12,976 bases of DNA. Source: Eubacterium sp. (GTDB lineage: Bacteria > Bacillota > Clostridia > Oscillospirales > Acutalibacteraceae). This document shows positions 988 to 12,976 of the stretch, piece after piece. The translations under genes and the position numbers were made by a program. The notes under the pieces are model-generated. The model did not search any database and was not told the origin of the DNA. It saw only the letters and a list, made by a program, of their open reading frames with translations. The DNA lies in contig JAILGO010000149.1 of assembly GCA_024696725.1 (NCBI GenBank), forward strand, positions 1 to 12,976, in the 5' to 3' direction. Position 1 is the stretch's first letter. Every line of letters begins with the position of its first letter.

Positions 988-1253
988 AAAAATAAACCCC
1001 CGAGGCATAATGCCTCAGGGACGAATTAACGCGGTACCACCCTGATTGACTTATAAAAAGTCCTCTCTGCGGGATTCTGTCAAATCCCCTGCCTTGATAA
1101 CGGGGCAAGCCGTAGTTTCTTACTTAATTCCGAAACTCTGCTCCGAAACGAGACTTGCTTTCCGTCCGTGCCGACTTACACCAGCCGTCGGCTCTCTTCG
1201 CCGGATTTAAGAAAACAATTAATTTCTTCATAGCATTTAATATATAAGTGATT
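988..1253 (-). promoter_or_regulatory. T-box leader riboswitch controlling the isopropylmalate synthase-like gene
   Basis: The minus strand carries the diagnostic T-box sequence AGGGTGGTACCGCG (1043-1030), directly followed by a terminator hairpin. Upstream lies a recognisable Stem I. Its distal arm GCCGAC (1192-1187) pairs with GTCGGC (1175-1170) around a GGTGTAA-containing loop, and a lower helix UUGUUUU (1218-1212) pairs with AAAGCAA (1161-1155). The specifier loop follows as GTCTCG. By spacing to the conserved lower stem, the best specifier is CUC (1152-1150, leucine), although GUC (1154-1152, valine) overlaps it. Uncharged tRNA would stabilise the antiterminator and switch the downstream gene on. 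The class is certain; the amino acid is tentative. Confidence 0.95.
991..1020 (-). terminator. T-box regulatory terminator hairpin
   Basis: On the minus strand, GAGGCA (1016-1011) pairs with TGCCTC (1007-1002). The stem is extended by a U-G pair and three G-C pairs and is followed by a T-rich tract. It begins just after the T-box sequence, as expected for the terminator alternative to the antiterminator. Confidence 0.9.
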
Positions 1254-1374: not shown

Positions 1375-4089
1375 ATGAAACGTAATTTTAAAGCAGCTTT
1401 AAGTATTATTCTTTCCGTAATTCTTATTATAACGGTTTCAGCCTGTTCAAAGGGAACGGCAAAAAATGCAGAGGTAAAGCTTAAGAGCTTCGACGGCGAA
1501 AAGGCGGATTTCAGCCTCAATATAGAAAATACCGAGGTACACGGTATAAGCGATATGCTTTACGGCGTTTTCTTTGAGGATATTAATTTCTCGGCTGACG
1601 GCGGACTTTACGCCGAAATGATTGCTAACCGCTCGTTTGAATTTACCGGGCTCGCAAAGGACGACGAGATGTATCACTGGGCTGTCGAAGGCGGGGCTGA
1701 CGCCGAGGTTAAAATCGGCGACAAGGAAAACGCGCTAAATAAAAACAACACGAATTATCTCGTTATTTCAAACTCCTCGTCAGAGCCTGCGGGAGTTAAG
1801 AACATCGGCTTTATGGAGGGTATGGCGGTTAAGGCGCAGAATTATAATTTCTCGCTTTACGCGAAAGCGCTTGACGGCTACGACGGCGGTATAACCGTAA
1901 GGCTCGACGCGGGCGGCACGGTTTTAGCCGAGGGCAGAATTGAAAAGCTCACGGATAAATGGGAAAAGTATTCGCTCTCACTCGCCTCAAACGCCGAGAA
2001 AAGCGAGGACGTTTCGCTTCAGGTTCTTATCGACGGCGGAAAAGCGGCTGTGGATATGGTTTCTCTTTTCCCCGAGAACACGTTTAAAAACCGTGAAAAC
2101 GGTATGAGAGCCGACCTCGCAGGACTTCTTGAGGATATGAAACCGCGCTTTCTGCGCTTCCCCGGCGGCTGCGTAATAGAGGGCTATGACGAAAAAACCG
2201 CTTACGACTGGAAGGCTTCCGTCGGTGCTGACGAAAACGGTAAGCCGCTTGAATTCAACGGCGGATACGGCGACGTTGCCGCAAGGCGTCAGGGCGTTGA
2301 CCTGTGGACCGATATTAACGCTACGGACGACGAGTGGCCGAGCTTTATGAGCTACGGGCTCGGCTTCTTCGAGTATTTTCAGCTTGCCGAGGATATAGGC
2401 GCGGTAGGCGTACCCGTACTTAACGCAGGACTTTACTGTCAGGGAAGAGACGGCAAGGGCGTTAATATTACCTCCGAAAAATTCGCGGGATACGTTGACG
2501 ATATGCTCGACCTCGTTGAATTCTGCAGAGGCGGTAAAAACACCGAATGGGGCAAGGTAAGGTGCAGCCTCGGACACGACGAACCCTTTGAGCTTAAATA
2601 TATATGTATAGGTAACGAAAATCACAGCGAGGTTTATTACAGAAGGTATCAGGCGTTTCTCGACGCGCTGAACAAGGCTAAAGCCGAAGCTCCCGAGCTT
2701 TATAAGGACATTGAGCTAATCTATTCGTCCGGCGGCGACGACGGTCTTTCGGGCGGAGACGCGTACCTTAACTCATATAAATACGCTAAAAAGCATCTCA
2801 GCGGAAAAACCGACGCTACGGAATTCGCGGGAGCGGTCGACGCTCACTATTATAACGAGCCCGAATGGTTTTTAGATAACGCGGACTACTACGACGAAAA
2901 CAATTATCAGCGCTCCGTTTCAAAAATGACGGACACCGCTTACGGCGGAGCTATACCCGTTTTCGTGGGCGAATACGCCTCGCTTTCAAACAATATGAAA
3001 TCCGCTCTTTCCGAGGCGGCGTATATGACGGGGCTTGAAAGAAACGGCGACATAGTAAGAATGGCGGCTTACGCTCCTCTTTATTCAAGCGTTACCGCAA
3101 GACACTGGGCGCCTAATCTTATATGGTTCAATAATCAGACCGCTCAGCCCTCCGTAAACTACTACGTTCAGAAGCTGTTTTCAAACCATGCGGGAAGCGT
3201 GCTTCTTAAATCGTCGCTTGAAGGCGCTTCGCTCGGAGACGCCGACCTGCGCGGCTCGGCAGGAGTAGGAACGTGGCTTACCTCGGCTGAATTTAAAAGC
3301 GCAGTTATTACGGATAACGAAACGAACGAGGTGCTTTATCAAAACGATTTTCTCGAAAGCGGCGAAATAAAAAAGAACTGGGAAATCCCGTCGACGGGTA
3401 ACTTCTTAATCGAGGGCGGCTCGCTCGTTCAGACCGAAACCGAAACCGATTACAGCGACTCGGGCTCGATAGCTTATTACGATAATCCGGAGCTCAGCAA
3501 TTATACCTACATGGTTACAGCGAAAAAGCTCGGCGGAAAAGAGGGCTTTTTCATTCCCTTTGCCGTCAGGGATAAGGAAAATATGTTCTTCTGGAACATA
3601 GGCGGCTGGGACAACACGGTATCGTGCCTTCAGGAAATGAAAAACGGCAAAAAGTCCGGTCAGCTTCCCGGAACGGTAAGGGAGTTCAAAGCCGAGGACG
3701 ACAGAAGCTACGAGCTTAAAATTACAATAAATAAAACAAATATAAAATGCTACATAGACGGCGAGCTTTATATCGATTATGACGCAAAGACCGCCGAGGC
3801 GCAGGCATATCAGACGGTCAGCAGGGACGAAAACCGAAACGTGATTATTAAGCTCGTTAACGTAACGGAAAAAGAAAAGACCTTCGCGATAAACGCAGAA
3901 GGCTTTGAGGGGAATTACAGCGCGGAAGCATATATTTTAAATTCCGACGAGCTTACCGACGAAAACGTATTCGGCGAGAAGGAAAAGGCGGCTGTCAGGG
4001 AATTCACTCCCGAGCTGCCCGATACAAAATTCAATTACACAGCGCCGAAGTATTCAGTAACGGTAATAGTATTAAAGGAAGCGGATTAA
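1375..4089 (+). CDS. GH51 alpha-L-arabinofuranosidase, surface lipoprotein
   Basis: This 904-residue exported enzyme is predicted to release terminal alpha-L-arabinofuranosyl groups from arabinoxylan or arabinan. It opens with a lipoprotein signal (hydrophobic stretch, then VSAC with Cys at about residue 24), so it is probably anchored on the outer face of the membrane. Residues about 55-80 (LYGVFFEDINFSADGGLYAE) are the typical GH51 start. A CBM4-like beta insertion follows at about 100-235, then the TIM barrel (RFLRFPGGCV). The catalytic acid/base is E415 in GNENH and the nucleophile is E533 in VGEYAS, both intact. A LamG/DUF1080-like jelly roll (about 618-792) lies inside the C-terminal beta domain, which resumes at VIIKLVNVT. 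The start ATG follows AGGAGG (1362-1367) by 7 nt. The gene is monocistronic and convergent with the next gene. There is no dockerin, so it is cell-bound rather than cellulosomal. Confidence 0.93.
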   Translation: MKRNFKAALSIILSVILIITVSACSKGTAKNAEVKLKSFDGEKADFSLNIENTEVHGISDMLYGVFFEDINFSADGGLYAEMIANRSFEFTGLAKDDEMYHWAVEGGADAEVKIGDKENALNKNNTNYLVISNSSSEPAGVKNIGFMEGMAVKAQNYNFSLYAKALDGYDGGITVRLDAGGTVLAEGRIEKLTDKWEKYSLSLASNAEKSEDVSLQVLIDGGKAAVDMVSLFPENTFKNRENGMRADLAGLLEDMKPRFLRFPGGCVIEGYDEKTAYDWKASVGADENGKPLEFNGGYGDVAARRQGVDLWTDINATDDEWPSFMSYGLGFFEYFQLAEDIGAVGVPVLNAGLYCQGRDGKGVNITSEKFAGYVDDMLDLVEFCRGGKNTEWGKVRCSLGHDEPFELKYICIGNENHSEVYYRRYQAFLDALNKAKAEAPELYKDIELIYSSGGDDGLSGGDAYLNSYKYAKKHLSGKTDATEFAGAVDAHYYNEPEWFLDNADYYDENNYQRSVSKMTDTAYGGAIPVFVGEYASLSNNMKSALSEAAYMTGLERNGDIVRMAAYAPLYSSVTARHWAPNLIWFNNQTAQPSVNYYVQKLFSNHAGSVLLKSSLEGASLGDADLRGSAGVGTWLTSAEFKSAVITDNETNEVLYQNDFLESGEIKKNWEIPSTGNFLIEGGSLVQTETETDYSDSGSIAYYDNPELSNYTYMVTAKKLGGKEGFFIPFAVRDKENMFFWNIGGWDNTVSCLQEMKNGKKSGQLPGTVREFKAEDDRSYELKITINKTNIKCYIDGELYIDYDAKTAEAQAYQTVSRDENRNVIIKLVNVTEKEKTFAINAEGFEGNYSAEAYILNSDELTDENVFGEKEKAAVREFTPELPDTKFNYTAPKYSVTVIVLKEAD

Positions 4090-4110
4090 TCCGCTTCCTT
4101 TTTTCTCTTT
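4074..4110 (+). terminator. Rho-independent terminator of GH51 that contains both convergent stop codons
   Basis: Positions 4074-4101 form a 28-nt perfect palindrome centred between 4087 and 4088, followed on the plus strand by a T-rich run. The GH51 stop (4087-4089) and the stop of the opposing membrane-protein gene (4088-4086) both lie at its centre. On the minus strand the following sequence is only partly T-rich, so termination in that direction may be weaker. Confidence 0.85.
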
Positions 4111-4607
4111 TTAAACCAGAATATTATACATATTATAATAACGATAAAGGTTGAATACATCAGCAGCGTTTTTATTGTCGTAAACGTACTGCCGAAGGAA
4201 ACGAGCCGCGCCGAGAGCTCGCTGCTCTTTAAAAGCATAATACTGCATATATTTTCCGCATAGTCGAACGCCGCAAGCGTTACGGGGAAAATAACAAGCG
4301 CGTTCACCCTTTTACACAGCCTTATAATAAGGAAGGTAAAAAAGAGACAGTAGGCTATCGGATAGATAAAGTCGAGCGGAAGCTGAACGTTAAGATAAAG
4401 CGCTCTTGCCTCGTCGCTGATATTACTTAAAAACGCGGACGCGTCGTCGAAGCCGTAAGCGAAATTCATATCAAAGCAGCGTATACCCGCCGAAGCTTCT
4501 ATTTTCGGTATCAGAACGAAATTCATTATTCCCGAAATAAGTGCGGTAAGCGCGCCGCCTGCGATAACCGCGGTTTTTCCTTTTTTACTTAATATAAAAT
4601 CTTTCAT
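4086..4607 (-). CDS. Small four-helix integral membrane protein of unknown function
   Basis: This 173-residue protein has about four hydrophobic helices: residues about 12-30 (VIAGGALTALISGIMNFVL), 79-95 (IYPIAYCLFFTFLI), 102-125 and 145-163. It ends in a basic tail (KKRKKEAD). The loop between helices 1 and 2 (AGIRCFDMNFAYGFDDASAF) is probably extracytoplasmic. I do not recognise a family with certainty and assign no function. The start chosen is the ATG at 4607, which has AGGTGA 5 nt upstream; a TTG further out (4625) has no ribosome site. It lies downstream of the CotH gene on the same strand, but a terminator separates them, so co-transcription would need read-through. Its stop overlaps that of the convergent GH51 gene. 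Confidence 0.8.
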   Translation of the reverse strand: MKDFILSKKGKTAVIAGGALTALISGIMNFVLIPKIEASAGIRCFDMNFAYGFDDASAFLSNISDEARALYLNVQLPLDFIYPIAYCLFFTFLIIRLCKRVNALVIFPVTLAAFDYAENICSIMLLKSSELSARLVSFGSTFTTIKTLLMYSTFIVIIICIIFWFKKRKKEAD

Positions 4608-4616
4608 AATATCACC

Positions 4617-4645
4617 TGAAAACAAGGGAGGGTTTCCCCTCCCTT
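4617..4645 (-). terminator. Rho-independent terminator after the CotH operon
   Basis: On the minus strand a 9-bp stem, AAGGGAGGG (4645-4637) with CCCTCCCTT (4632-4624), encloses a GAAA loop and is followed by TGTTTTC. It falls 8 nt past the CotH stop and ends just before the ribosome site of the small membrane-protein gene. Confidence 0.88.
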
Positions 4646-4652
4646 TTAAATA

Positions 4653-4805
4653 TTAATGAGCGTAGACGAAGTTGTTTTCCTTAACGTTCATAAAGTTTTG
4701 GAATACGGTCTTATAAAGCTGAAGGTCGTCCGATTTTTCCTTAAGGATAATCGCATAGTCCTTAGCGTTTATAACTCCGTCGGAATTAAAGTCGATTGCT
4801 ACGAC
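4653..4805 (-). other. Single-loop dockerin-like module at the CotH C-terminus
   Basis: DFNSDGVINAKDYAIILK (residues 1679-1696) has the D-x-N-x-D-G...D calcium-loop spacing and following helix of a type I dockerin repeat. The second repeat expected about 20 residues later is absent: the remaining 28 residues (DDLQLYKTVFQNFM onward) carry no matching loop. It may be a degenerate dockerin, or a helical end that pairs with the loop in another way. Confidence 0.65.
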
Positions 4806-7800
4806 GGGGATTGTAACCGAAGCGGCGTTAACCGAATCGGCGGTAAAGGATAAGGTTCTTTCAAACGTCATACCGCTGTTTGCTACGATAGTAACCGTCT
4901 CGCCGTCGGATACGGTTACGGTAAGCGTTCCGTTTTCGGTTTCGTATTCCTCGCCGTTTACGGTAACAGCCGTGTCAACCGCGTAGCTTCCGCTGTCAAC
5001 GTCGGGGTCCTCAAGCATTACGGTATTTACGGTAAGCGTATAATCGCTCGGCATCGGTACGCCCGAAAGCTCGATAGCGTTAATACCCGTATTACCCTTG
5101 GTAACCTCGAGCGGGTCGTCGAGCTCGTCGCCCTCTACCGTCTCGCCGCCGTTAATGAATACCTTGATATAGAGGTGAGCCTGATTATCGCAGGCGCTCG
5201 GAAGCGGAAGGTTATTAAAGGTTTCTACCGTCGTATCGGCTGCGTCGTTACTGATTGCTCTTGCGTTGGACGAAGCAACGTAGGTATAAGACGAGCCGTT
5301 CGTTGAGTATGCAACAGCCCAGTCGCGCGGTCCCTTATTGGACGAGAGCTGCTCAAGGTTGAGCGTCAGGTCGGTATAACCGAGCGAGCTTGTATCAATA
5401 AGCCAGTAGCCGTTGCCTGCGGGAACGTCGAGATTCTTCGTAGCGGTAAAGATATTGTCAGCCGCCCACGATACCTTAACGCCGTAGGTTTCAGTATAGC
5501 TGAGCGTAGCCGTTGTTACGCCGTTCGGACACATAGAGAGCGTACCGGCGTTGGTTCCGCCCGTATTCGACGCGGAAAAGCCGCTTGCGCTTACGTAGGA
5601 TTCAAACGGCTTCTTATCCGAATACTTGAACTGAGTTACCGTTTCGCCCTTGTAGTAATACTGCTTTGTGTTAATCTCGCTTCGGTCGCTGTCCTCAATA
5701 TCGCCTGCCCAGACGGATACGTTGTACGGTCCCGGGGACTTCGAATTGAAGGCTGCGGCGGTTGAAATCGAGATACCCGTATCGGGATAGCTTCCCGAAA
5801 CGATAATATTATTGTTAGTATCGGTTACGATATACTGCATCGGCTCGCCGTCGGGGCTTACGTACTTGATTGTACCCGTACCGAAGTAGCTCGTGCTCTT
5901 ATTCGTATAAGGCATCTTAAGCTCGCCGTTTTCGTCGCCGCTGATTGTAATATCGTTAATGTAAAGGTTACCCTTTGAAAGATTGTTGTGAAGCGTTTCG
6001 CCCGCGTTAGTCTGATTTTCCGTAGTAACAAGTCTTATAAGAACCTGCTTCTGATTATCGCAGGCGCCCGGAAGCGCGGCAAGCGTCATATAGTCGCCGA
6101 GCTCCGTCGGAAGAGCGGAATTGCTTATAACGGTATTCCACGTACTTCCGTCAAGGCTGTACTGAAGCGAGAGCGATTTCGGTCCGCTTGAGGTTGTATA
6201 AGCCTTACAGGTGAGCTTAACGTTTTCGAAGCCCGCCGTCGAAATATCAAAGGTGTAACCCGAGTCCGCGCTCCAGAGCGCGCCGTCGTCGGGTGAAATC
6301 GCGAACGCCCCGTTTTTCTCGTTCCAGAGAGGAACGTACTGTGATACGCCGTCGGTATACGCGGTCATCTTTCCGCTTTCGCCGTAGATACCGCCCGTTG
6401 AGAATACCGTAGCGTTAGTTTCGTTTTGCGGATAGGTCTCGTAGCTGAAGGAATTGATATCCGCGCCGCCGTAGGTAAGAGTAAGCGTCGTAACGTCGGA
6501 TACGATTTCGCCGAACTGCGCGTAAGCCGTTACGGTCTTTGTATCGCCGCTTACGTTAGTGCTGTCAAACGGATTGAATGCTTCGGTATAAAGCTGAGGC
6601 GTTGAGCCGTCGACGCTGAAGTATACGTCCGCACCGCCGTTATTATCCTTTACGCTGACGCTGTTGCTGCTGAATACGGTCGAGGTATCGGCAAGCTTTG
6701 AATCGGTGGAAACAGTAGGCGCGTCAAGGCTTGTAATAACGCTCTTGGAAACGCCCGTAACCTCAATATTGTTAACCGCCGCGTCGCCGCTCGTCTGATT
6801 AACTATTACGTTGATTCCGTTAATAGCCGCGTCCTCACAGACGGTCATTCGGATATATACTCTCGTTTTATCCTCGCACTCCGCAGGGAGCTGAACCTCG
6901 TTGAATACCTTAATCATCGTCTTATTATCGGTGATTATATATTCGGTATTTTCAACGGATGTGAAGTTAACGCCGTCAAGAGAATACTGAAGAAGCCAGC
7001 TTCTCGGCGCCTTCTTCGTTCCGCCGAGGTATGCGGAGAATTTAATATCCTCATAGCCCTTCGTCGAAACTGAGGTTTCAAAGTAAGGATACTGTCCCCA
7101 CGCGAGTCCGTCGGTCTTACTTGTACCCATTACGGGGACCTGGTCGGTTTCGTTGGTTCCGATTTGTCCGCCGTAGAGGTCAGCCGTACCCGACCACTTA
7201 ATCTTCGCGCTTGTGCTTGCGTTAACCGAGGCGCGAAGCTCTGCGGTATCAGCCTTTTCACCGCCCGTAGCCATATAGTAATAGCCCGTGCCGGAAGCGT
7301 CTGCGTTTACAAGCGCCTCGGGAGCGGCGGTATAGTCGTAATTCCACTGAGCTATTGACCTTGAATAGCCTGTGGGACGGACTCCGTCGTATACGGTACA
7401 GGGGTTAGAGGTAATCTGAGCGTAGCTCATATTCGTTCCGTCGCCCTTGGCGACAACCGTCAGAGCAGTACCTCTGTCGTCATCGCTTACGGTATAAGTC
7501 GGCCCGGTTGCGCCGCTTATCGCCGTTCCGTCGGAATACCACTGATAAGTGATAAAGTTATTAACCGTTTCGCCCGAGGCATTGGTTACCTCGGCGGTAA
7601 GCACGTCGCCCGAGTAAGCACCGTCGTAGATAGATACGCTACCGCCCGAAAGCGTTCCCTTTGAAATCGTGAACGGGAACGAGGCGGTTCCGGTAAACAT
7701 ACCCTTACCCGTAAGGATAACCTCAGCGTCGTAGCCTACGGCGATATTATTCGCGTATGAGAGCTCATAGTCAACGCCCTCTTCAAGCGCGATGCCGTTA

Positions 7801-9827
7801 TATGTAACAACGGGAACAGGCTTGATTTCGTTTCCCGTACAGAAGTATTCGTCGAAGGGTTCAACCGCCGCGTTGGTAATTGATTTCTGGCTTATCTGTC
7901 CGTTAATCCAGGTATTTCTTTTATTCAGCCACTGTGTAAGCGAGCTCGTTACGCTTGAAGCGCTGTAATCGTCGATACTGTGTCTTATACTGTTCATCTT
8001 GCCCGACTTTTCAATCGTAGCGGCGTACTCTGCTACGGAGCGAAGCTTTCCGCTTTCGTCAACAGCGTTTCCTAAAAGAATCTGGGTAGCGGGCTGAATA
8101 GTGGTAAACCAGTATTTTTCAACCATCGGCCAGAAGTCCGTGCAGTTATTTGCAAGCGCGCCGAAGAAGGTACGGCACATCTTTGAACCTGCGGAATACG
8201 TGGTCAAGCCGTCGGACGGCTTCCAGCGGTAAATCGCCATATTCTTAACGTACCAGGTCTGAGCGTTTGAACAGCTGTATCCCCAGCGGGACTGAGAGCC
8301 GTTATAATACCAAGCGTGGTCCATATCCCAGATAGGACCTGCGTAAATCATACCGTCTACGCTGTCACTGTCCTTAAAGAAATAGTTAGAGGTAGTAGAC
8401 GCGTCAAGGTTCTGATAGTATTCCTGTACCCAGTAGAAGAGAACCGCGGACTTTGCGTCAAGCAGTTCGGTCCACTTCTTGCCCTGATATTTCGCCGCGG
8501 GAGCGGGATTCGTTTTTGAAATAGTGGTAAGGAGCGGTCTGAACGAGGTGGTTACCGATTTATTCGGTACGACACCGTTATTATATACCGCGCCGCCGAG
8601 AGCATAGAGTAAATCGTAGCAGTAATTACACATATCGGTTGATATGTAATCGCAGCTCTTTATAGTCCAGCCCTGGCCGTTATATGCGGAGAAGCCCGCG
8701 TTTTCCTTATACCAGCGGTTCGAGATTTCAAGCTCGAATACGTAGCCGCCCGTAACGTCCGACGGACTTGTAAGACTTGACGAATATTTTTTCGCGCCGA
8801 CGTCGCCGCTCGCGCTTTCGCTTACTGAGGTCGTGCTCGTTCCCGTTAAGTCTTTCGGAGTAACGAGTCCCGTCGTTGGGTCGACCGTACCGTTAGCAAG
8901 CTCAAGATTTTCGTAAGCGTCGGTAATATTAATTCTGTTTGATTTAATCTGTACCTTCTCGGCAAGCTGATAGCTGCCGAAATACTGCTGATTGACATAG
9001 AGGTCAACCGGCTTCGTATGTACCTGATACGGAACGCCGACGTAATCGGCAAAGTCGTATATAATCTGGTCCTTTAAAAGAGAGGGGTCGGTACCGTCGT
9101 CGTTAGCGATTAAGCACCACTTTTTAGCCTTTGGCATACCCTGAAGGCTTGCGGATTCGGCAAGCTTGATATTATAAGGCTTCTTACCCGTTACGTCCCA
9201 CGTTGCGTTACCGCGTCCGTTCATTTTTGCAAGTTCGCCGTCGTAATCGACCGTTCCGTCGGGCTTCGTAACGAGAATCGTACCGTGGTCGTAGTTGCTC
9301 TGATTCGAGTTAATCGAGCTTATAGAGCCCGACGAGGTGTCGATATAGATTGCGCCTACCTCGCCCGACTTCATAGCGTTAACGCTGTAGCTCGTTCCGC
9401 CTATAGTAAAGGTATAGCCCTGAGACACGCCGCCTGCGTTAATAGCGGAAAGCGCGTTAGTCGGCTCGCCGCTTGTAAGGGTTGTATCGTCGATTTTTAC
9501 GGTCGTACCCGAGGGGAACCAGAACTTAAGATTATTACAGTCGGCGTTAGACGGAAGGAAAAGATAGTAGTTGCTTCCGCTTGAAGTCCTTTTATGAATA
9601 CCTACGGCGCCTGCCATAGTGGTTTTGTTGCCTGATTTAAACGCGGCAACGTCCTCCTGAGTCAGAACGTTTTCGGGGTCCGCCCAGACGTTTAAGAGCG
9701 AGCTCTCGAGGCTCTGGGCATCGGGCGCGCCCGAAGCGTATGCAACAAACGGTACCGCGCAGAGCGTGGCAGCGAGTATTGCAAGCGCTGAGATTACGGC
9801 TATTATTCTTTTAACTGACTTTTTCAT
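4653..9827 (-). CDS. Giant secreted CotH-kinase protein with Ig-like repeats and a half dockerin
   Basis: This 1724-residue protein begins with a Sec signal peptide (residues 1 to about 31, ending near AYA). Residues about 180-650 form a CotH kinase domain, the atypical kinase fold of spore coat protein H. Conserved blocks are NGRGNATW (203-210) and KKPYNIK (215-221), then DPSLLKDQIIYD, FGSYQLAEKV (E290, K291) and GPIWDMDHAW (D501, D503). Next come two Ig-like domains (about 656-815), three copies of a beta module (about 816-1030, 1118-1297 and 1397-1590) and a chitobiase-type FN3-like segment (about 1045-1110). The C-terminus has one dockerin calcium loop (DFNSDGVINAKD, 1679-1690). The ATG follows AGGGGA, and the gap to the upstream lipoprotein gene is 9 nt, so the genes are co-transcribed. 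It probably phosphorylates or binds partners at the cell surface; the substrate is unknown. Confidence 0.92.
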   Translation of the reverse strand: MKKSVKRIIAVISALAILAATLCAVPFVAYASGAPDAQSLESSLLNVWADPENVLTQEDVAAFKSGNKTTMAGAVGIHKRTSSGSNYYLFLPSNADCNNLKFWFPSGTTVKIDDTTLTSGEPTNALSAINAGGVSQGYTFTIGGTSYSVNAMKSGEVGAIYIDTSSGSISSINSNQSNYDHGTILVTKPDGTVDYDGELAKMNGRGNATWDVTGKKPYNIKLAESASLQGMPKAKKWCLIANDDGTDPSLLKDQIIYDFADYVGVPYQVHTKPVDLYVNQQYFGSYQLAEKVQIKSNRINITDAYENLELANGTVDPTTGLVTPKDLTGTSTTSVSESASGDVGAKKYSSSLTSPSDVTGGYVFELEISNRWYKENAGFSAYNGQGWTIKSCDYISTDMCNYCYDLLYALGGAVYNNGVVPNKSVTTSFRPLLTTISKTNPAPAAKYQGKKWTELLDAKSAVLFYWVQEYYQNLDASTTSNYFFKDSDSVDGMIYAGPIWDMDHAWYYNGSQSRWGYSCSNAQTWYVKNMAIYRWKPSDGLTTYSAGSKMCRTFFGALANNCTDFWPMVEKYWFTTIQPATQILLGNAVDESGKLRSVAEYAATIEKSGKMNSIRHSIDDYSASSVTSSLTQWLNKRNTWINGQISQKSITNAAVEPFDEYFCTGNEIKPVPVVTYNGIALEEGVDYELSYANNIAVGYDAEVILTGKGMFTGTASFPFTISKGTLSGGSVSIYDGAYSGDVLTAEVTNASGETVNNFITYQWYSDGTAISGATGPTYTVSDDDRGTALTVVAKGDGTNMSYAQITSNPCTVYDGVRPTGYSRSIAQWNYDYTAAPEALVNADASGTGYYYMATGGEKADTAELRASVNASTSAKIKWSGTADLYGGQIGTNETDQVPVMGTSKTDGLAWGQYPYFETSVSTKGYEDIKFSAYLGGTKKAPRSWLLQYSLDGVNFTSVENTEYIITDNKTMIKVFNEVQLPAECEDKTRVYIRMTVCEDAAINGINVIVNQTSGDAAVNNIEVTGVSKSVITSLDAPTVSTDSKLADTSTVFSSNSVSVKDNNGGADVYFSVDGSTPQLYTEAFNPFDSTNVSGDTKTVTAYAQFGEIVSDVTTLTLTYGGADINSFSYETYPQNETNATVFSTGGIYGESGKMTAYTDGVSQYVPLWNEKNGAFAISPDDGALWSADSGYTFDISTAGFENVKLTCKAYTTSSGPKSLSLQYSLDGSTWNTVISNSALPTELGDYMTLAALPGACDNQKQVLIRLVTTENQTNAGETLHNNLSKGNLYINDITISGDENGELKMPYTNKSTSYFGTGTIKYVSPDGEPMQYIVTDTNNNIIVSGSYPDTGISISTAAAFNSKSPGPYNVSVWAGDIEDSDRSEINTKQYYYKGETVTQFKYSDKKPFESYVSASGFSASNTGGTNAGTLSMCPNGVTTATLSYTETYGVKVSWAADNIFTATKNLDVPAGNGYWLIDTSSLGYTDLTLNLEQLSSNKGPRDWAVAYSTNGSSYTYVASSNARAISNDAADTTVETFNNLPLPSACDNQAHLYIKVFINGGETVEGDELDDPLEVTKGNTGINAIELSGVPMPSDYTLTVNTVMLEDPDVDSGSYAVDTAVTVNGEEYETENGTLTVTVSDGETVTIVANSGMTFERTLSFTADSVNAASVTIPVVAIDFNSDGVINAKDYAIILKEKSDDLQLYKTVFQNFMNVKENNFVYAH
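5055..7382 (-). repeat. Three diverged copies of a beta-rich module inside the CotH protein
   Basis: The copies lie at about 5055-5640, 5940-6476 and 6760-7382. Each has the pattern W/L-x-x-x-YS-[LT]-[DN]-G, then a conserved LP-x-[AE]-C-[DE]-[DN] and a closing [VI]NxI-x-[IVL]-[ST]-G strand. A near-identical 26-nt stretch (25 of 26) at 5181-5206 and 6051-6076 supports duplication of the module rather than convergence. The fold is unknown to me but resembles an F5/8-type or carbohydrate-binding jelly roll. Confidence 0.75.
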
Positions 9828-9836
9828 AATTATCCC

Positions 9837-11402
9837 CTATCTGTTATTAGTGGATTCGATGTCTATTACTGCCGCGCTGCCCTTCCATGCGGTCTTTGCC
9901 TTTTTACCGTTGGCAGTAGCTTCATATTCCTTATTCTTCGTTATTCCCGAGGAGGAATAAAGGAATTTTGTACATTTATTCGAGGACTTTTTAACGCCCT
10001 TTATTTCAATTATCGCAGGGACCTTACTTTCAAGCGCCGCGGCTTCCGTTCCCCTGCTCGGTTTAACAATCTTACAGGTTATGCTCGGCTGCTTTGAGGC
10101 GCTTCCCTGAACTGTTGTAATCCTTTTACCCTCGCCTCTTACGGTACCGCCGTTAATTGCGAAGGTATCCGCAGCGGTACGAACGCAGCCCTTCGGCGCA
10201 CCGATTTCGGTATTGTTAATTCTTCTTACTTTAAAGCACGCCTTTTCAAGAGCGGTACAGGTTATAGTTCCGCCGTTGATTACTATCGCGTCGTCGGCGT
10301 CGATAGCGTCGCAGGCTGAGGAGGTGAGGCTCGCCGAGCCGCTTTCCGCTATAAATTCGTCGCATCTTAAGGCGTCGCCGTTCGTCTTTGCGTAGAGGCT
10401 TCCGCTTTCAAGCGTTACCTTACTGTATGAGAAGATTCCTCTTGCGGAGCCGGTAGCAGAAGCCATCGTTGAGGTATTCTCGTTCTGCGCAGTAGTAAGA
10501 TTAAGACTGAGGTTTCTTATCTTAATACTCTTAGTTGAGCAGATACAGTTGTTAGCGGCTTTAATGCTTGCAAAGGTTGCGGAGCCGTGACCTTTAATCG
10601 TAAGCTTTGATTCGTTATAGAGAACGCCGGTTACGCTGTTTGCGCTCGTCTGGAAATAGCTTTTCGTTCCCTCGGGGAAGGAGAGCTGAACGTTCGGCGC
10701 AAGGTCGTTATCCGAAATATCCTTAATCTCGTCCGACGCGGTTTCGCTTTCGGTTTCAAGGAAGGAACGGCTCGTAGTAATGCTTTTATCTATAAGCTCA
10801 ATAATACTTCTCGAATTATTCGTTATCTTAACGTTCTCAAAGCGGAGCTCCGCCTTTTCGGAATTTTTAAGCTTTACGATAATCTTTCCGTGCCAGTCGT
10901 CCGTAGTGCTTGTAATCCTGTAGTCGCCGGGCTTTTCAATAAGCACCTCGCCGGTCGAGAGCATAACGTTCGGCGACGAGCATTTAGCTTTTCTGTTTTT
11001 CTGAAGCACTATATCGATATAAGTAATCTCGGGCTCGGTAGTCGTAGTAGTCGTATTATTCTTTTTCTTCTTATTTTTCTTTTTATTATTTCCCGTTTGC
11101 TTATTCGGAGCGCTCGTGCTTTCAAGCTTGACCGAAGAAGCCGAGGTCGAAGGAGCGGTAGTCGTTTCGCCGGTAACCGAGGTAACGTCGGTTGAAGCCT
11201 CACTTGCCGCTTCGGTTACTATTTCGGTCACAGCCGAGCCGTCGGGCGTTGTTACCGCAGAGCCGTCGGTATTGGTTACAACCTCGATTGTGGTCGTTCC
11301 CGTCTCCTCAGTGTTACCCGAAGGCACGGCGCTGCAAGCCGAGAACGTACATACAAGCAGAGCGCCGCAAAGCAAAACGGAAATTAGCTTTTTATTTATC
11401 AT
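9837..11402 (-). CDS. Cthe_2159-like carbohydrate-binding beta-helix lipoprotein
   Basis: This 521-residue protein has a lipoprotein signal (LISVLLCGALLVCTFSAC, Cys at about 23). A Thr/Ser-rich linker with a Lys/Asn tract follows (about 30-125). The rest is a repetitive domain (about 128-515) with short strand-turn repeats such as LTIKGHGSATF, VTLESGSLYAKTNGDALRC and D365-AIDADD followed by IVINGGTIT. These match the Cthe_2159 family (formerly DUF4353), a parallel beta-helix whose founder from Clostridium thermocellum binds cellulose and polygalacturonate. There is no sign of lyase catalysis. It is probably tethered to the membrane with the binding domain extended into the wall. The start has AGGTGA 5 nt upstream. 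The gap to the DUF4956 gene is 15 nt and to the CotH gene 9 nt, so it belongs to the operon. Confidence 0.85.
   Translation of the reverse strand: MINKKLISVLLCGALLVCTFSACSAVPSGNTEETGTTTIEVVTNTDGSAVTTPDGSAVTEIVTEAASEASTDVTSVTGETTTAPSTSASSVKLESTSAPNKQTGNNKKKNKKKKNNTTTTTTEPEITYIDIVLQKNRKAKCSSPNVMLSTGEVLIEKPGDYRITSTTDDWHGKIIVKLKNSEKAELRFENVKITNNSRSIIELIDKSITTSRSFLETESETASDEIKDISDNDLAPNVQLSFPEGTKSYFQTSANSVTGVLYNESKLTIKGHGSATFASIKAANNCICSTKSIKIRNLSLNLTTAQNENTSTMASATGSARGIFSYSKVTLESGSLYAKTNGDALRCDEFIAESGSASLTSSACDAIDADDAIVINGGTITCTALEKACFKVRRINNTEIGAPKGCVRTAADTFAINGGTVRGEGKRITTVQGSASKQPSITCKIVKPSRGTEAAALESKVPAIIEIKGVKKSSNKCTKFLYSSSGITKNKEYEATANGKKAKTAWKGSAAVIDIESTNNR
11030..11325 (-). other. Low-complexity Thr/acidic linker with a lysine-rich tract
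   Basis: Residues about 27-125 of the beta-helix lipoprotein are almost only T, S, A, E, V, K and N. They include a short tandem repeat (DGSAVTTPDGSAVTE) and the cationic tract NNKKKNKKKKNNT (105-117), followed by a run of threonines. The tract sits where the protein leaves the membrane and may act as a wall-spanning spacer or a binding site for polyanions. Confidence 0.7.
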
Positions 11403-11417
11403 ATTTTCACCTGTGGT

Positions 11418-12119
11418 TTACTGGAAGTGGAAGGAACGGTTAGTCGTTTCGGTAGAAAGCTGAATCTTAAGGTTACCGTTAAGAACTCTCAGGTCGTCAA
11501 TCATTTTACGGATTTCGGAGGGGTCATTCATTGTAACGTCGAAGGTTATTTCAAAGAGTGCGCCGAAGTCAACGCTCTTAACGCGCTTCATTTCAAAACG
11601 CTTAGTGTACTTTTTAAGCGTTTCGTCGAAAGCGCCCGCATAGTTAAGCGTTTCGGGAACCGTGATTTTAAGCTCAAAGCGGTTTCTGTCTCTTCCCGCG
11701 AAGTTTGTGAAGTGAAGCACGAGGATAATTACGCCGAGAACTACTACCGCAATAATCGCGTAAATCCAGTAGCCGAGTCCGCAGGTAAGTCCCATAGCAA
11801 CGCTGAGAAATACGAAGGCAATATCCTTCGGGTCGCCGGGCGCGCTACGGAAACGAACGAGCGCGAACGCACCCGCGAGTGAAAACGCGGTAGCGACGTT
11901 ATTTCCGATTACAAGGATTACCATACCTACGATAGGCGCAAGCAGGATAAGCGAAACGCAGAACGCCTGGGAATAGCCTTCCTTTTTATGAGTAAGTAAA
12001 TAAATAAGGCTGATAAAAAAGCCGATTGCCGAGGCTGATACAAGAACCGTGAGAACGCTTTTCCAGTCAAGGTTAGTCGCCCAGTCTCCGCTCGTTACAT
12101 TATATAAGAAATCCTCCAT
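11418..12119 (-). CDS. DUF4956 family membrane protein
   Basis: This 233-residue protein has an N-terminal membrane half and a cytosolic tail. Helices are at about 22-43, 53-71, 74-88, 100-116 and 118-136. The signature of the family is the block ALVRFRSAPGDPKDI (86-100) followed by VFLSVAMGLTCGLG; the Arg/Pro/Asp loop is the most conserved part. Residues 140-233 look like an alpha/beta domain (FELKITVP; ALFEITFDV; IRKMIDDLRVLNG). The molecular function is unknown. Members of this family commonly sit beside VTC-domain genes, as here, so it is a candidate membrane partner or polymer channel for the VTC enzyme. The start has AGGAGG that overlaps the VTC stop codon, and the gap is 11 nt, which implies translational coupling. 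Confidence 0.88.
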   Translation of the reverse strand: MEDFLYNVTSGDWATNLDWKSVLTVLVSASAIGFFISLIYLLTHKKEGYSQAFCVSLILLAPIVGMVILVIGNNVATAFSLAGAFALVRFRSAPGDPKDIAFVFLSVAMGLTCGLGYWIYAIIAVVVLGVIILVLHFTNFAGRDRNRFELKITVPETLNYAGAFDETLKKYTKRFEMKRVKSVDFGALFEITFDVTMNDPSEIRKMIDDLRVLNGNLKIQLSTETTNRSFHFQ

Positions 12120-12130
12120 TATTAATCCTC

Positions 12131-12910
12131 CTAATCTTCAAAGAAGTCGAAATCTATCTGTTTACCGTTTTTATCGGTTAAATAATAATTAAGCTTTCCG
12201 TCCTGGCTGTCACGTTTATAACGCACGCCGTATTTTGAAAAGCCGCGGCTGTAGAGCTTATTTTCGCTCAGTATCGCCGTCATCCACAGCGGCATAGCGC
12301 CGAGAATTTTTATCTCCATAATATACATATCGTCGGGAAGCAGCAGCTCGTCCTCGTCGCTTTCGCCGAAAACGAAATTACTTCGCCGCGTACGCACGTT
12401 ACGGTCAAAGGTCATACGAAAATTTTTATCCTCCTTACCGAAGAGGGCAAGCCGGTCGTACTGAACGTAAAGCGCGGGCTGCACCTTATTCATTTTAAGG
12501 AAATAGGCAAGCTCCTTAGCCACCTGGCCCGAAAGGTAATTTTTCGTTTCGGGTAAAACTCCGTCATTAACGAAGGGTTCAATCTCACGAAGCTTTATTT
12601 TAATCCGCCGTTTATTACCGACCTTTTCGCTTTTTTTCTTAAGCTCCATAAACACGGTATCCTCGGGGTCGGTCACGGGATAGTAGGAGCGTATTCTCAT
12701 TTTTTCCTTATAAGTAAGTCCCTGAGAGTTAGAGCGGATTACGTCGTGATTTACCGTATCATAATAAATACTGTATATCCGGTATTCCTTACCGCCTATA
12801 CAGTACTCGTCAAGCTCCATACGCTCGAGAAGCAGCGGCAAAATCTTATCAAGCTGTTCCTTTGTAATAAGATACTTTTTTTCGTATCGTTTAAAGGTTG
12901 AAATCGCCGT
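12131..12910 (-). CDS. VTC-domain polyphosphate polymerase-like protein, apparent ACG start
   Basis: This is a cytosolic tunnel-fold (TTM superfamily) protein of 259 residues from the chosen start, related to the catalytic domain of yeast Vtc4, which makes polyphosphate from ATP. The basic and acidic residues that line the tunnel are present: FKRYEKKY (6-13), KMRIRSYY (R72, R74), FMELKKK (E89), MTFDRNVR (D169, R170, R173), MEIKI (E199, K201) and FSKYG (K226). There is no SPX domain or membrane helix, so membrane association would come from DUF4956. The start is odd. GGGGAGGTGG (12924-12915) lies 7 nt before ACG (12910), and reading from there gives MAISTFKRYEKKY, the usual N-terminus of the family. 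The frame also stays open to an ATG at 12970, which would add 20 residues, but no ribosome site for it is visible. First gene of the operon as seen here. Confidence 0.85.
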   Translation of the reverse strand, partial: TAISTFKRYEKKYLITKEQLDKILPLLLERMELDEYCIGGKEYRIYSIYYDTVNHDVIRSNSQGLTYKEKMRIRSYYPVTDPEDTVFMELKKKSEKVGNKRRIKIKLREIEPFVNDGVLPETKNYLSGQVAKELAYFLKMNKVQPALYVQYDRLALFGKEDKNFRMTFDRNVRTRRSNFVFGESDEDELLLPDDMYIMEIKILGAMPLWMTAILSENKLYSRGFSKYGVRYKRDSQDGKLNYYLTDKNGKQIDFDFFED

Positions 12911-12914
12911 ATAA

Positions 12915-12924
12915 CCACCTCCCC
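12915..12924 (-). promoter_or_regulatory. Strong Shine-Dalgarno sequence facing an ACG codon
   Basis: GGGGAGGTGG on the minus strand places GGAGG (12922-12918) exactly 7 nt before ACG at 12910-12908. An out-of-frame ATG at about 12945 and the in-frame ATG at 12970 both lie upstream of this site, so neither can use it. Confidence 0.75.
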
Positions 12925-12976
12925 GAGAAAGCAAGCTTCCATAACAGTCTATTATTAATAAATTATTCATAATTAT

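Follow-up and report, generated by a model that had tools for sequence, protein, structure and literature searches.

A VTC, DUF4956, Cthe_2159 and CotH operon of a rumen-type gut bacterium: a possible phosphate-polymer module for the cell surface

Background

The subject of this analysis is a four-gene operon that encodes, in order of transcription, a VTC protein, a DUF4956 protein, a Cthe_2159-family protein and a CotH-family protein. It lies in a 12,976-nt stretch of DNA from Eubacterium sp. (JAILGO010000149.1; here called the window), which is the whole of contig C152 of a 1.82 Mb genome that is 93% complete; the host is a rumen-type gut bacterium. Parts of this gene set are known from other systems. 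In the relevant passage of a paper printed in 2020, CotH, a poly-phosphate polymerase, DUF4956 and DUF4832 are contiguous with pelDEADAFG in streptococci and clostridia, and regulation of Pel by phosphorylation is named as one possibility (PMC7112168). The passage on the NELoc-2 locus of C. perfringens gives the order VTC, 'tubulin', resolvase, VTC, 'tubulin', CotH, a 685 aa protein, HEAT and GT2 (PMC2879425). Among the single families, Bacillus CotH is stated to phosphorylate Ser/Lys/Arg repeats (PMC7821199), and Cthe_2159 is introduced as a cellulose-binding beta-helix family (PMC7480376).

As far as the 2020 passage describes it, the Pel accessory set resembles the window operon in having CotH, VTC and DUF4956 side by side, and three of the family loci surveyed below (G012, G017 and G023) follow PelG and DUF3492/GT4 genes, with DUF2194 in two of them. 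The window differs in that its DUF4956 is of the other of two subtypes (termed F-type and L-type below), its CotH comes from another branch and Cthe_2159 is present; no Pel genes were found on the window contig or, for 25 F-type co-members, in the 25 of 28 families listed. From VTC on, the published order of NELoc-2 is that of the L-type locus G053:C8 and, apart from an additional gene ahead of CotH, of G069:C56; its 'tubulin' (222-226 aa) occupies the place of DUF4956, which suggests that the two are the same. NELoc-2 differs in being L-type with a GT2 synthase, and Cthe_2159 does not appear in the passage. The yeast VTC complex has a homologous catalytic tunnel with the key basic residues and also ties its synthase to a membrane part, but in the window the membrane partner, DUF4956, is separate and MgtC-like, there is no SPX domain, and one tunnel glutamate differs. 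Compared with Bacillus CotH and its companions CotB/CotG, the window CotH is signal-bearing, is 1724 aa long and has many extra modules. A preliminary description of the stretch regarded the combination as not worked out; this seems right for its function, but the association of CotH, poly-phosphate polymerase and DUF4956 had already been printed. Among the matches listed in literature searches, outside which most subscription papers lay, none dealt with the function of bacterial VTC-DUF4956, with the Cthe_2159 branch or with DUF4956 as kin of MgtC.

Results

VTC and DUF4956 form a near-obligate pair

Co-occurrence was counted in 100 genomes of one family, representing 99 genera and drawn from a larger group. 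Genes within 5 kb of VTC were taken as neighbors, and expected counts were derived from uniform placement on rounded genome sizes; fragments belonging to a single CotH gene were joined, which left 96, and for Cthe_2159 the main row of each gene was counted (68), additional fragments close to it being set aside. VTC was found at 70 loci in 51 of the genomes. DUF4956 was near VTC at 69 of these loci (0.64 expected), Cthe_2159 at 32 (0.45 expected) and CotH at 29 (0.71 expected), so the adjacency that the preliminary description had proposed to count is far above chance. Spacing, tunnel, lipobox and co-member counts used 63 of the 70 loci, or fewer: at 49 of the 57 loci measured, VTC and DUF4956 overlap or are separated by 30 nt or less, with starts taken as the first ATG, GTG or TTG. 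Since adjacency exceeds chance and the tunnel residues described below are invariant, a joint role of the neighboring genes is likely, as judged from sequence. The same description had treated all four genes as one joint system. Its VTC-DUF4956 core holds (69/70), but Cthe_2159 and CotH are mostly alternative partners, both being near VTC at 5 of the 70 loci only. VTC is nearby for just 29 of the 96 CotH and 32 of the 68 Cthe_2159 genes; both families therefore also live elsewhere.

Signature sequences of DUF4956 define an F-type (GAFxLxRFRS, 36 loci) and an L-type (GALSIVRFRT, 32 loci). F-type loci have Cthe_2159 in 27 cases, both partners in 3, neither in 6 and CotH alone in none; L-type loci have CotH in 23, both in 2, neither in 7 and Cthe_2159 alone in none. 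One remaining locus is of unassigned subtype with CotH, and the other has a VTC without DUF4956. VTC and DUF4956 are a near-obligate pair that occurs in two subtypes with fixed partners. The window DUF4956 is F-type, with the signature GAFALVRFRSAPG. Two-component genes, for a histidine kinase and a response regulator from two clusters that recur, were located no more than 6 kb away at 20 of the 36 F-type loci and at 2 of the 32 L-type loci; Pfam identity was confirmed for one such pair. Other co-members were scanned with two-component genes left out, which covered 41 of the 43 L-type proteins and 25 of the 26 F-type ones. The first 25 of 58 families listed for the 41 L-type proteins included PelG (3), DUF3492/GT4 (3), DUF2194 (2), GT2 (2), HEAT (2) and GGDEF (3), all of which were absent from the 25 of 28 families listed for the 25 F-type proteins. 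In G070 (L070:6112-7866), a Na/Pi-cotransporter-PhoU gene lies directly upstream of VTC-DUF4956-Cthe_2159, with two-component genes.

At least 588 named loci were found by way of DUF4956. VTC is present in 77 of the best 80; the remaining three have DUF4956 no farther than 140 bases from the start of the contig. The 80 include Clostridium, Acetobacterium, Lachnospiraceae and two archaeal metagenome-assembled genomes, L176 and L178 (Methanomethylophilaceae and Methanomassiliicoccaceae), in which DUF4956 precedes VTC, followed in one by Cthe_2159; transfer or contamination of the assemblies is possible. The named and same-family sets overlap (L107 = G021, L103 = G134). The label Bacteroides sp. 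NALB_7823_8 on L107 looks wrong, this locus corresponding to same-genus G021:C28.

In the window's own genus, 38 of 60 genomes had a VTC match. Of the 30 best loci, 20 were fetched further, and 19 of these have the order VTC-DUF4956-Cthe_2159-CotH (in one, CotH runs off the contig); in the 20th the contig ends after DUF4956. The four-gene operon is thus a stable genus-level arrangement. A divergent histidine kinase and regulator lie upstream in G021, G071, L103, L104, L106, L110 and L111. The neighboring kinase was considered as a PhoR and this was rejected, the two kinases tested matching PhoR/WalK models far under the cut-offs (best 25 models each). Among the matches listed, from which the window's own records may have been left out, the closest named relative was Ruminococcaceae bacterium UBA3751, with 86% over DUF4956.

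DUF4956 is a distant relative of MgtC

The window DUF4956 scores 64.9 bits against a PF16316 cut-off of 30.6. Its AlphaFold2 model (predicted local distance difference test score, pLDDT, 86) shows a membrane part of five long helices, followed at the C-terminus by a ferredoxin/ACT-like domain that is predicted to be cytosolic. MgtC is described as having TM1-TM5 and a divergent ACT domain (PMC4469704, in the section concerned). The Pfam MgtC model matched 35 of 55 DUF4956 proteins at E values up to 10, the best being 1.5e-4, and an MgtC search of 60 genomes gave weak matches below the cut-off at two DUF4956 genes (G053:C8 and G020:C34). The window protein itself matched PF02308 at E 5.3 with 7.9 bits, under the cut-off of 31.4, and is not of the MgtC family proper. 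Profile-profile comparison by hhalign gave a probability of 98.1 over 212 columns (-glob) and of 96.5 over 194 columns in local mode, with an alignment collinear across the membrane part and the ACT-like domain; the MgtC profile consisted of 12 of 25 fetched MgtC proteins, from the same genomes. Eighteen distinct control alignments, made with 14 membrane-rich clusters (9 holding two sequences only) and four further families, reached at most 1.2. By these profiles and the model, DUF4956 is a distant member of the MgtC superfamily; it differs from MgtC in falling under the Pfam cut-off, in its own signature GAF/GAL..RFR and in nearly always adjoining VTC (69/72). PCNA-like matches of DUF4956 were taken as chance.

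VTC keeps the polymerase tunnel of yeast Vtc4

The window VTC scores 159.9 bits against a PF09359 cut-off of 23. The tunnel residues, whose conservation in bacterial members the preliminary description had singled out for checking, are invariant in all 63 proteins compared (7 of the 70 loci were left out): R-E-K of strand one, K-R-R, E-K-K, R, R-T-D, E-K and S-K. A profile of 32 bacterial VTCs matches yeast Vtc4 at 5e-21. On our own count along that alignment, in which chain numbers are offset by 3, bacterial R94/R96 fall on Vtc4 R264/R266; the counterparts of E426 and K458 were assigned by motif, beyond the aligned stretch. Mutation of R264/R266 together with E426 is reported, in the part of the paper that concerns them, to leave yeast VTC inactive (PMC9911596). 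The comparison shows that the predicted cytosolic VTC keeps the polymerase tunnel of Vtc4. One motif reads RxExK in the bacterial proteins and RxTxK in Vtc4, a glutamate standing in place of Thr.

The preliminary description had placed the VTC boundary at 12910. A well-placed ribosome site agrees with this, but the codon there is ACG (12910-12908), which is no standard start. Other candidate starts in the same frame are a TTG that lies 8 codons upstream and the ATG at 12970. Alignment of 30 same-genus loci gave TTG as the start in 18, ATG in 6, ACG in 5 and CTG in 1, with G-rich stretches resembling ribosome sites ahead of it, as judged by eye. The ACG cases are the window, L268-L270 and L272. 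In L269, 18 open codons upstream of the ACG contain no ATG, GTG or TTG (ATT and ATA are present), and the invariant RxExK motif comes straight after the ACG. F-type VTCs outside the window clade start with ATG in 30 of 33 cases, under a rule that could return ATG, GTG or TTG only. From these alignments the window VTC apparently starts at ACG. No bacterial gene was found among the matches listed in a literature search for ACG starts, judged by title.

The CotH protein is an apparently competent kinase of separate origin

The window CotH scores 60.1 bits against a PF08757 cut-off of 23.8. The profile is matched over positions 4-101 of 322 only, and the later motifs and kinase fold are present beyond this short match; the modelled region shows the CotH kinase fold. 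In the protein, the kinase region is followed by F5/8C-like modules and, at the C-terminus, by a lone dockerin-like repeat. It has all of the motifs that we take to be catalytic in CotH, namely GRGN, the Lys of YN.KL, E, NxD and WDxD. NxD and WDMD are found in all 11 rows of its clade, of which 10 are distinct. The E is kept in 9 rows, L033 having Q and L112 having D in its place, and RGN is kept in 10, L112 having HGN; the motif columns are conserved across 46 CotHs. By a crude rule, a signal-like hydrophobic stretch opens 27 of 29 CotHs (28 of the 29 beside VTC). Motifs and model together indicate that the operon CotH is apparently a competent kinase. In a PDB sequence search, one cassette CotH had no match and the window CotH had chance matches only.

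In a tree of 58 of 65 sequences (7 free-standing stretches were left out), with groups named after the tree was seen, the operon CotHs form one clade (100/100) placed among mostly free-standing CotHs. This clade is separate from 26 of 33 cassette CotHs, and joining them was rejected (p 1.9e-61). The tree shows the operon CotH, within the limits of these alignments, to be derived separately from the cassette CotHs.

The dockerin-like repeat at the C-terminus of the window CotH (4653-4797, minus strand) reads D.N.D...NA.DYA, and the 9 clade members listed have a tail resembling it. Sister CotHs match Dockerin_1 below the cut-off only, and at E 0.001 the genome, which is 93% complete, yielded neither cohesin nor Dockerin_1 matches; attachment of CotH to a cellulosome through a dockerin was set aside as unsupported in this genome.

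Several Cthe_2159 proteins of the window clade carry Lys/Thr-rich linkers

The window Cthe_2159 protein scores 61.2 bits against a PF14262 cut-off of 25.8; a PDB sequence search with it gave no match. A lipobox pattern is present in 22 of 31 Cthe_2159 proteins adjoining VTC. The window protein has a Lys/Thr-rich linker, NKKKNKKKKNNTTTTTT, as do several others of its clade. Net charge per 100 residues in the clade ranges from -4.3 to +5.7 (13 complete proteins, 12 distinct), and 10 of the 13 exceed every one of the 60 other proteins, whose median is -6.0 and maximum -2.7. A Lys-rich linker was rejected as a rule for VTC-adjoining members, since a stretch with at least 6 Lys in 12 occurs in 2 of the 31 proteins beside VTC and in 2 of the 32 complete ones elsewhere. 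The Lys/Thr-rich linker is, in the sequences compared, a trend of the window clade and not a family rule, and its charge may be taken as a lead toward a kinase target or polymer binding, no more.

Organization of the operon and neighboring genes

The coordinates in Table 1 confirm four closely spaced genes on the minus strand, as first described, with intergenic gaps of 11, 15 and 9 nt. Stop codons overlap the ribosome sites ahead of DUF4956 (TAGGAGG) and CotH (TAGGGG), and there is a single terminator at the operon end, whose hairpin was equalled by 1 of 200 shuffles; these features too had been seen correctly. Because the window is a whole contig, the promoter and anything upstream of VTC fall outside it.

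Table 1. Features assigned to the operon in the window
Feature	Coordinates	Strand	Evidence
VTC gene, predicted cytosolic triphosphate-tunnel protein, polyphosphate-polymerase-like	12131..12910	-	PF09359 1e-46, tunnel residues, Vtc4 profile match, aligned start
Putative ribosome-binding site GGGGAGGTGG ahead of ACG start	12915..12924	-	Sequence; like site and spacing in relatives by eye
DUF4956 gene, F-type, distant MgtC relative	11418..12119	-	PF16316 9.7e-18, AlphaFold2 model, MgtC profile-profile comparison
Cthe_2159-family lipoprotein-like gene, Lys/Thr-rich linker	9837..11402	-	PF14262 1.2e-16, lipobox by pattern, charge comparison
CotH-family gene, 1724 aa, signal-like N-terminus	4653..9827	-	PF08757 3.4e-16, F5_F8_type_C 6.5e-07, motifs
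Modelled CotH kinase region (505 aa)	7836..9350	-	
Rho-independent terminator 3' of CotH	4624..4645	-	Hairpin -18.2 kcal/mol, z -2.9, U-rich tail

Just behind the terminator lies a gene for a 179-aa membrane protein (4086-4625, minus strand) that has no Pfam match and no relative at E 0.01 among the open reading frames of the fetched VTC/DUF4956 loci; from its position and these results it was not accepted as an operon member. Convergent with the operon is a gene for an alpha-L-arabinofuranosidase-like lipoprotein (1375-4089, plus strand), which fits a plant-fiber degrader. Farther along, a T-box leader (1014-1240, minus strand; 118.7 bits) precedes an HMGL-like gene, resembling isopropylmalate or homocitrate synthases (3-953), that extends off the contig.

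Discussion

We propose that the operon encodes a module that provides a phosphate polymer specifically for the cell surface, and give this reading a probability of roughly 0.42. Sequence comparison shows a VTC with the Vtc4 tunnel paired, nearly obligately, with an MgtC-like membrane protein bearing a cytosolic ACT-like domain. The VTC may use ATP to build polyphosphate on the inner side of the membrane; DUF4956 may control the chain and either let it pass or hand it on. We infer that the polymer, made at the membrane, would be used outside by the exported partner of each lineage: the Cthe_2159 lipoprotein in F-type loci, and the CotH kinase, at some loci with an exopolysaccharide synthase, in L-type loci. 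In the window's genus an F-type module would have captured a CotH from among the free-standing CotHs to give the four-gene operon. This CotH would phosphorylate surface targets, the first candidate being the Lys/Thr-rich linker of the neighboring lipoprotein, and the exported polymer is a possible source of its phosphate. Counted in favor of the surface module are the pairing itself (69/70), the close spacing of the two genes, the invariant tunnel residues, the exported-looking partners, the retained fold and motifs of CotH, the lack of a PPK1 match in G000, G021 and G071, the presence of PelG, DUF3492/GT4 and GT2 among L-type co-members, the less acidic lipoproteins of the clade, together with the Ser/Lys/Arg repeats that Bacillus CotH phosphorylates, and the separate CotH branch of the clade.

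Several observations weigh against it. At 13 of the 70 loci VTC-DUF4956 has neither partner in reach. PPK1 is present in 20 of 51 genomes with VTC vs 23 of 49 without (p 0.54), so that VTC as a replacement for PPK1 was rejected for want of any association across the 100 genomes, in a search that covered PPK1 and not PPK2. In the CotH tree, the free-standing L247 is placed with the cassette CotHs, and 7 of the cassette group fall on the opposite side. The linker is missing in clade members L112, L114 and L115, milder linkers occur in Ruminococcus loci without CotH (L121, L126 and L148), and 2 of 3 non-VTC Cthe_2159 proteins of G000 and G021 are slightly basic (L212 and L218); the charge may therefore be a habit of the genus. 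RxExK in place of RxTxK means that the chemistry of VTC may differ, and published accounts treat MgtC itself as a regulator rather than a channel.

The last of these points, with the kinship of DUF4956 to MgtC, makes a regulatory function a strong rival, one that we hold to be a serious if tentative possibility. DUF4956 would act as MgtC does, VTC would make a short or membrane-local polymer or simply use up ATP, and the ACT-like domain would relay this state to a histidine kinase (F-type) or to cyclic di-GMP/exopolysaccharide machinery (L-type), setting the amount of surface protein or matrix, with only ordinary secreted proteins exported. The sections available on MgtC describe it as acting on PhoR and ATP synthase (PMC6658541, PMC4469704), binding and activating PhoR and promoting phosphate uptake (PMC6658541), and repressing cellulose, with more exopolysaccharide in a P. 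aeruginosa mgtC mutant (PMC4469704). Two-component genes near 20 of 36 F-type loci, GGDEF in 3 of 41 L-type co-members and the Na/Pi-cotransporter-PhoU gene directly upstream of VTC in the G070 operon are consistent with such a circuit. Against it, 16 of the 36 F-type and 30 of the 32 L-type loci showed no genes of these two-component clusters nearby, although some of the contigs stop short; both kinases examined match PhoR and WalK models far below the cut-offs; and the repeated arrival of CotH kinases beside the pair is left unexplained.

A product other than polyphosphate appears distinctly unlikely. The VTC-like enzyme would transfer or build a different compound, such as a lipid- or glycan-bound pyrophosphate or oligophosphate, with DUF4956 presenting the acceptor and the exported partners acting on the decorated glycan. 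Enzymes with the tunnel fold differ in the reactions that they catalyse, and the relevant part of one study reports no polyphosphate synthesis by close structural relatives of Vtc4 (PMC4641920); the RxExK motif and the polysaccharide synthases adjoining some L-type loci also fit. The basic tunnel residues are nevertheless kept, and the F-type co-members in the families covered include no carrier-lipid or glycan-polymerising family. That the genes are chance or hitch-hiking neighbors in one lineage, with no joint role, is very improbable, even though the order VTC-DUF4956-Cthe_2159-CotH is known from a single clade only, at 3 of the 70 loci sampled across the family. It is opposed by the counts of neighbors against expectation, by the presence of all four genes in order at 19 of the 20 same-genus loci and by the single-partner loci of known subtype, which are 27 F-type with Cthe_2159, 23 L-type with CotH and none crossed; for the VTC-DUF4956 pair, chance is already refuted.

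A bolder form of the surface module, which we consider rather unlikely, would make VTC-DUF4956 a polyphosphate extrusion machine with an MgtC-like gated conduit. The exported polyphosphate would serve as phosphate donor or polyanion scaffold for outside kinases and lipoproteins, and CotH would have been recruited several times independently. If true, this would explain where an extracellular kinase gets its phosphate. An exported polymer would offer one answer to the standing question of what donates phosphate outside the cell. DUF4956 becomes a testable part of the system, as kin of MgtC found nearly always beside a polyphosphate-polymerase-like enzyme, and the two subtypes with fixed partners lead to clean knock-out predictions. 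This kinship and pairing of DUF4956 would tie the biology of MgtC, in phosphate, ATP and matrix, to phosphate polymers in Gram-positive gut bacteria.

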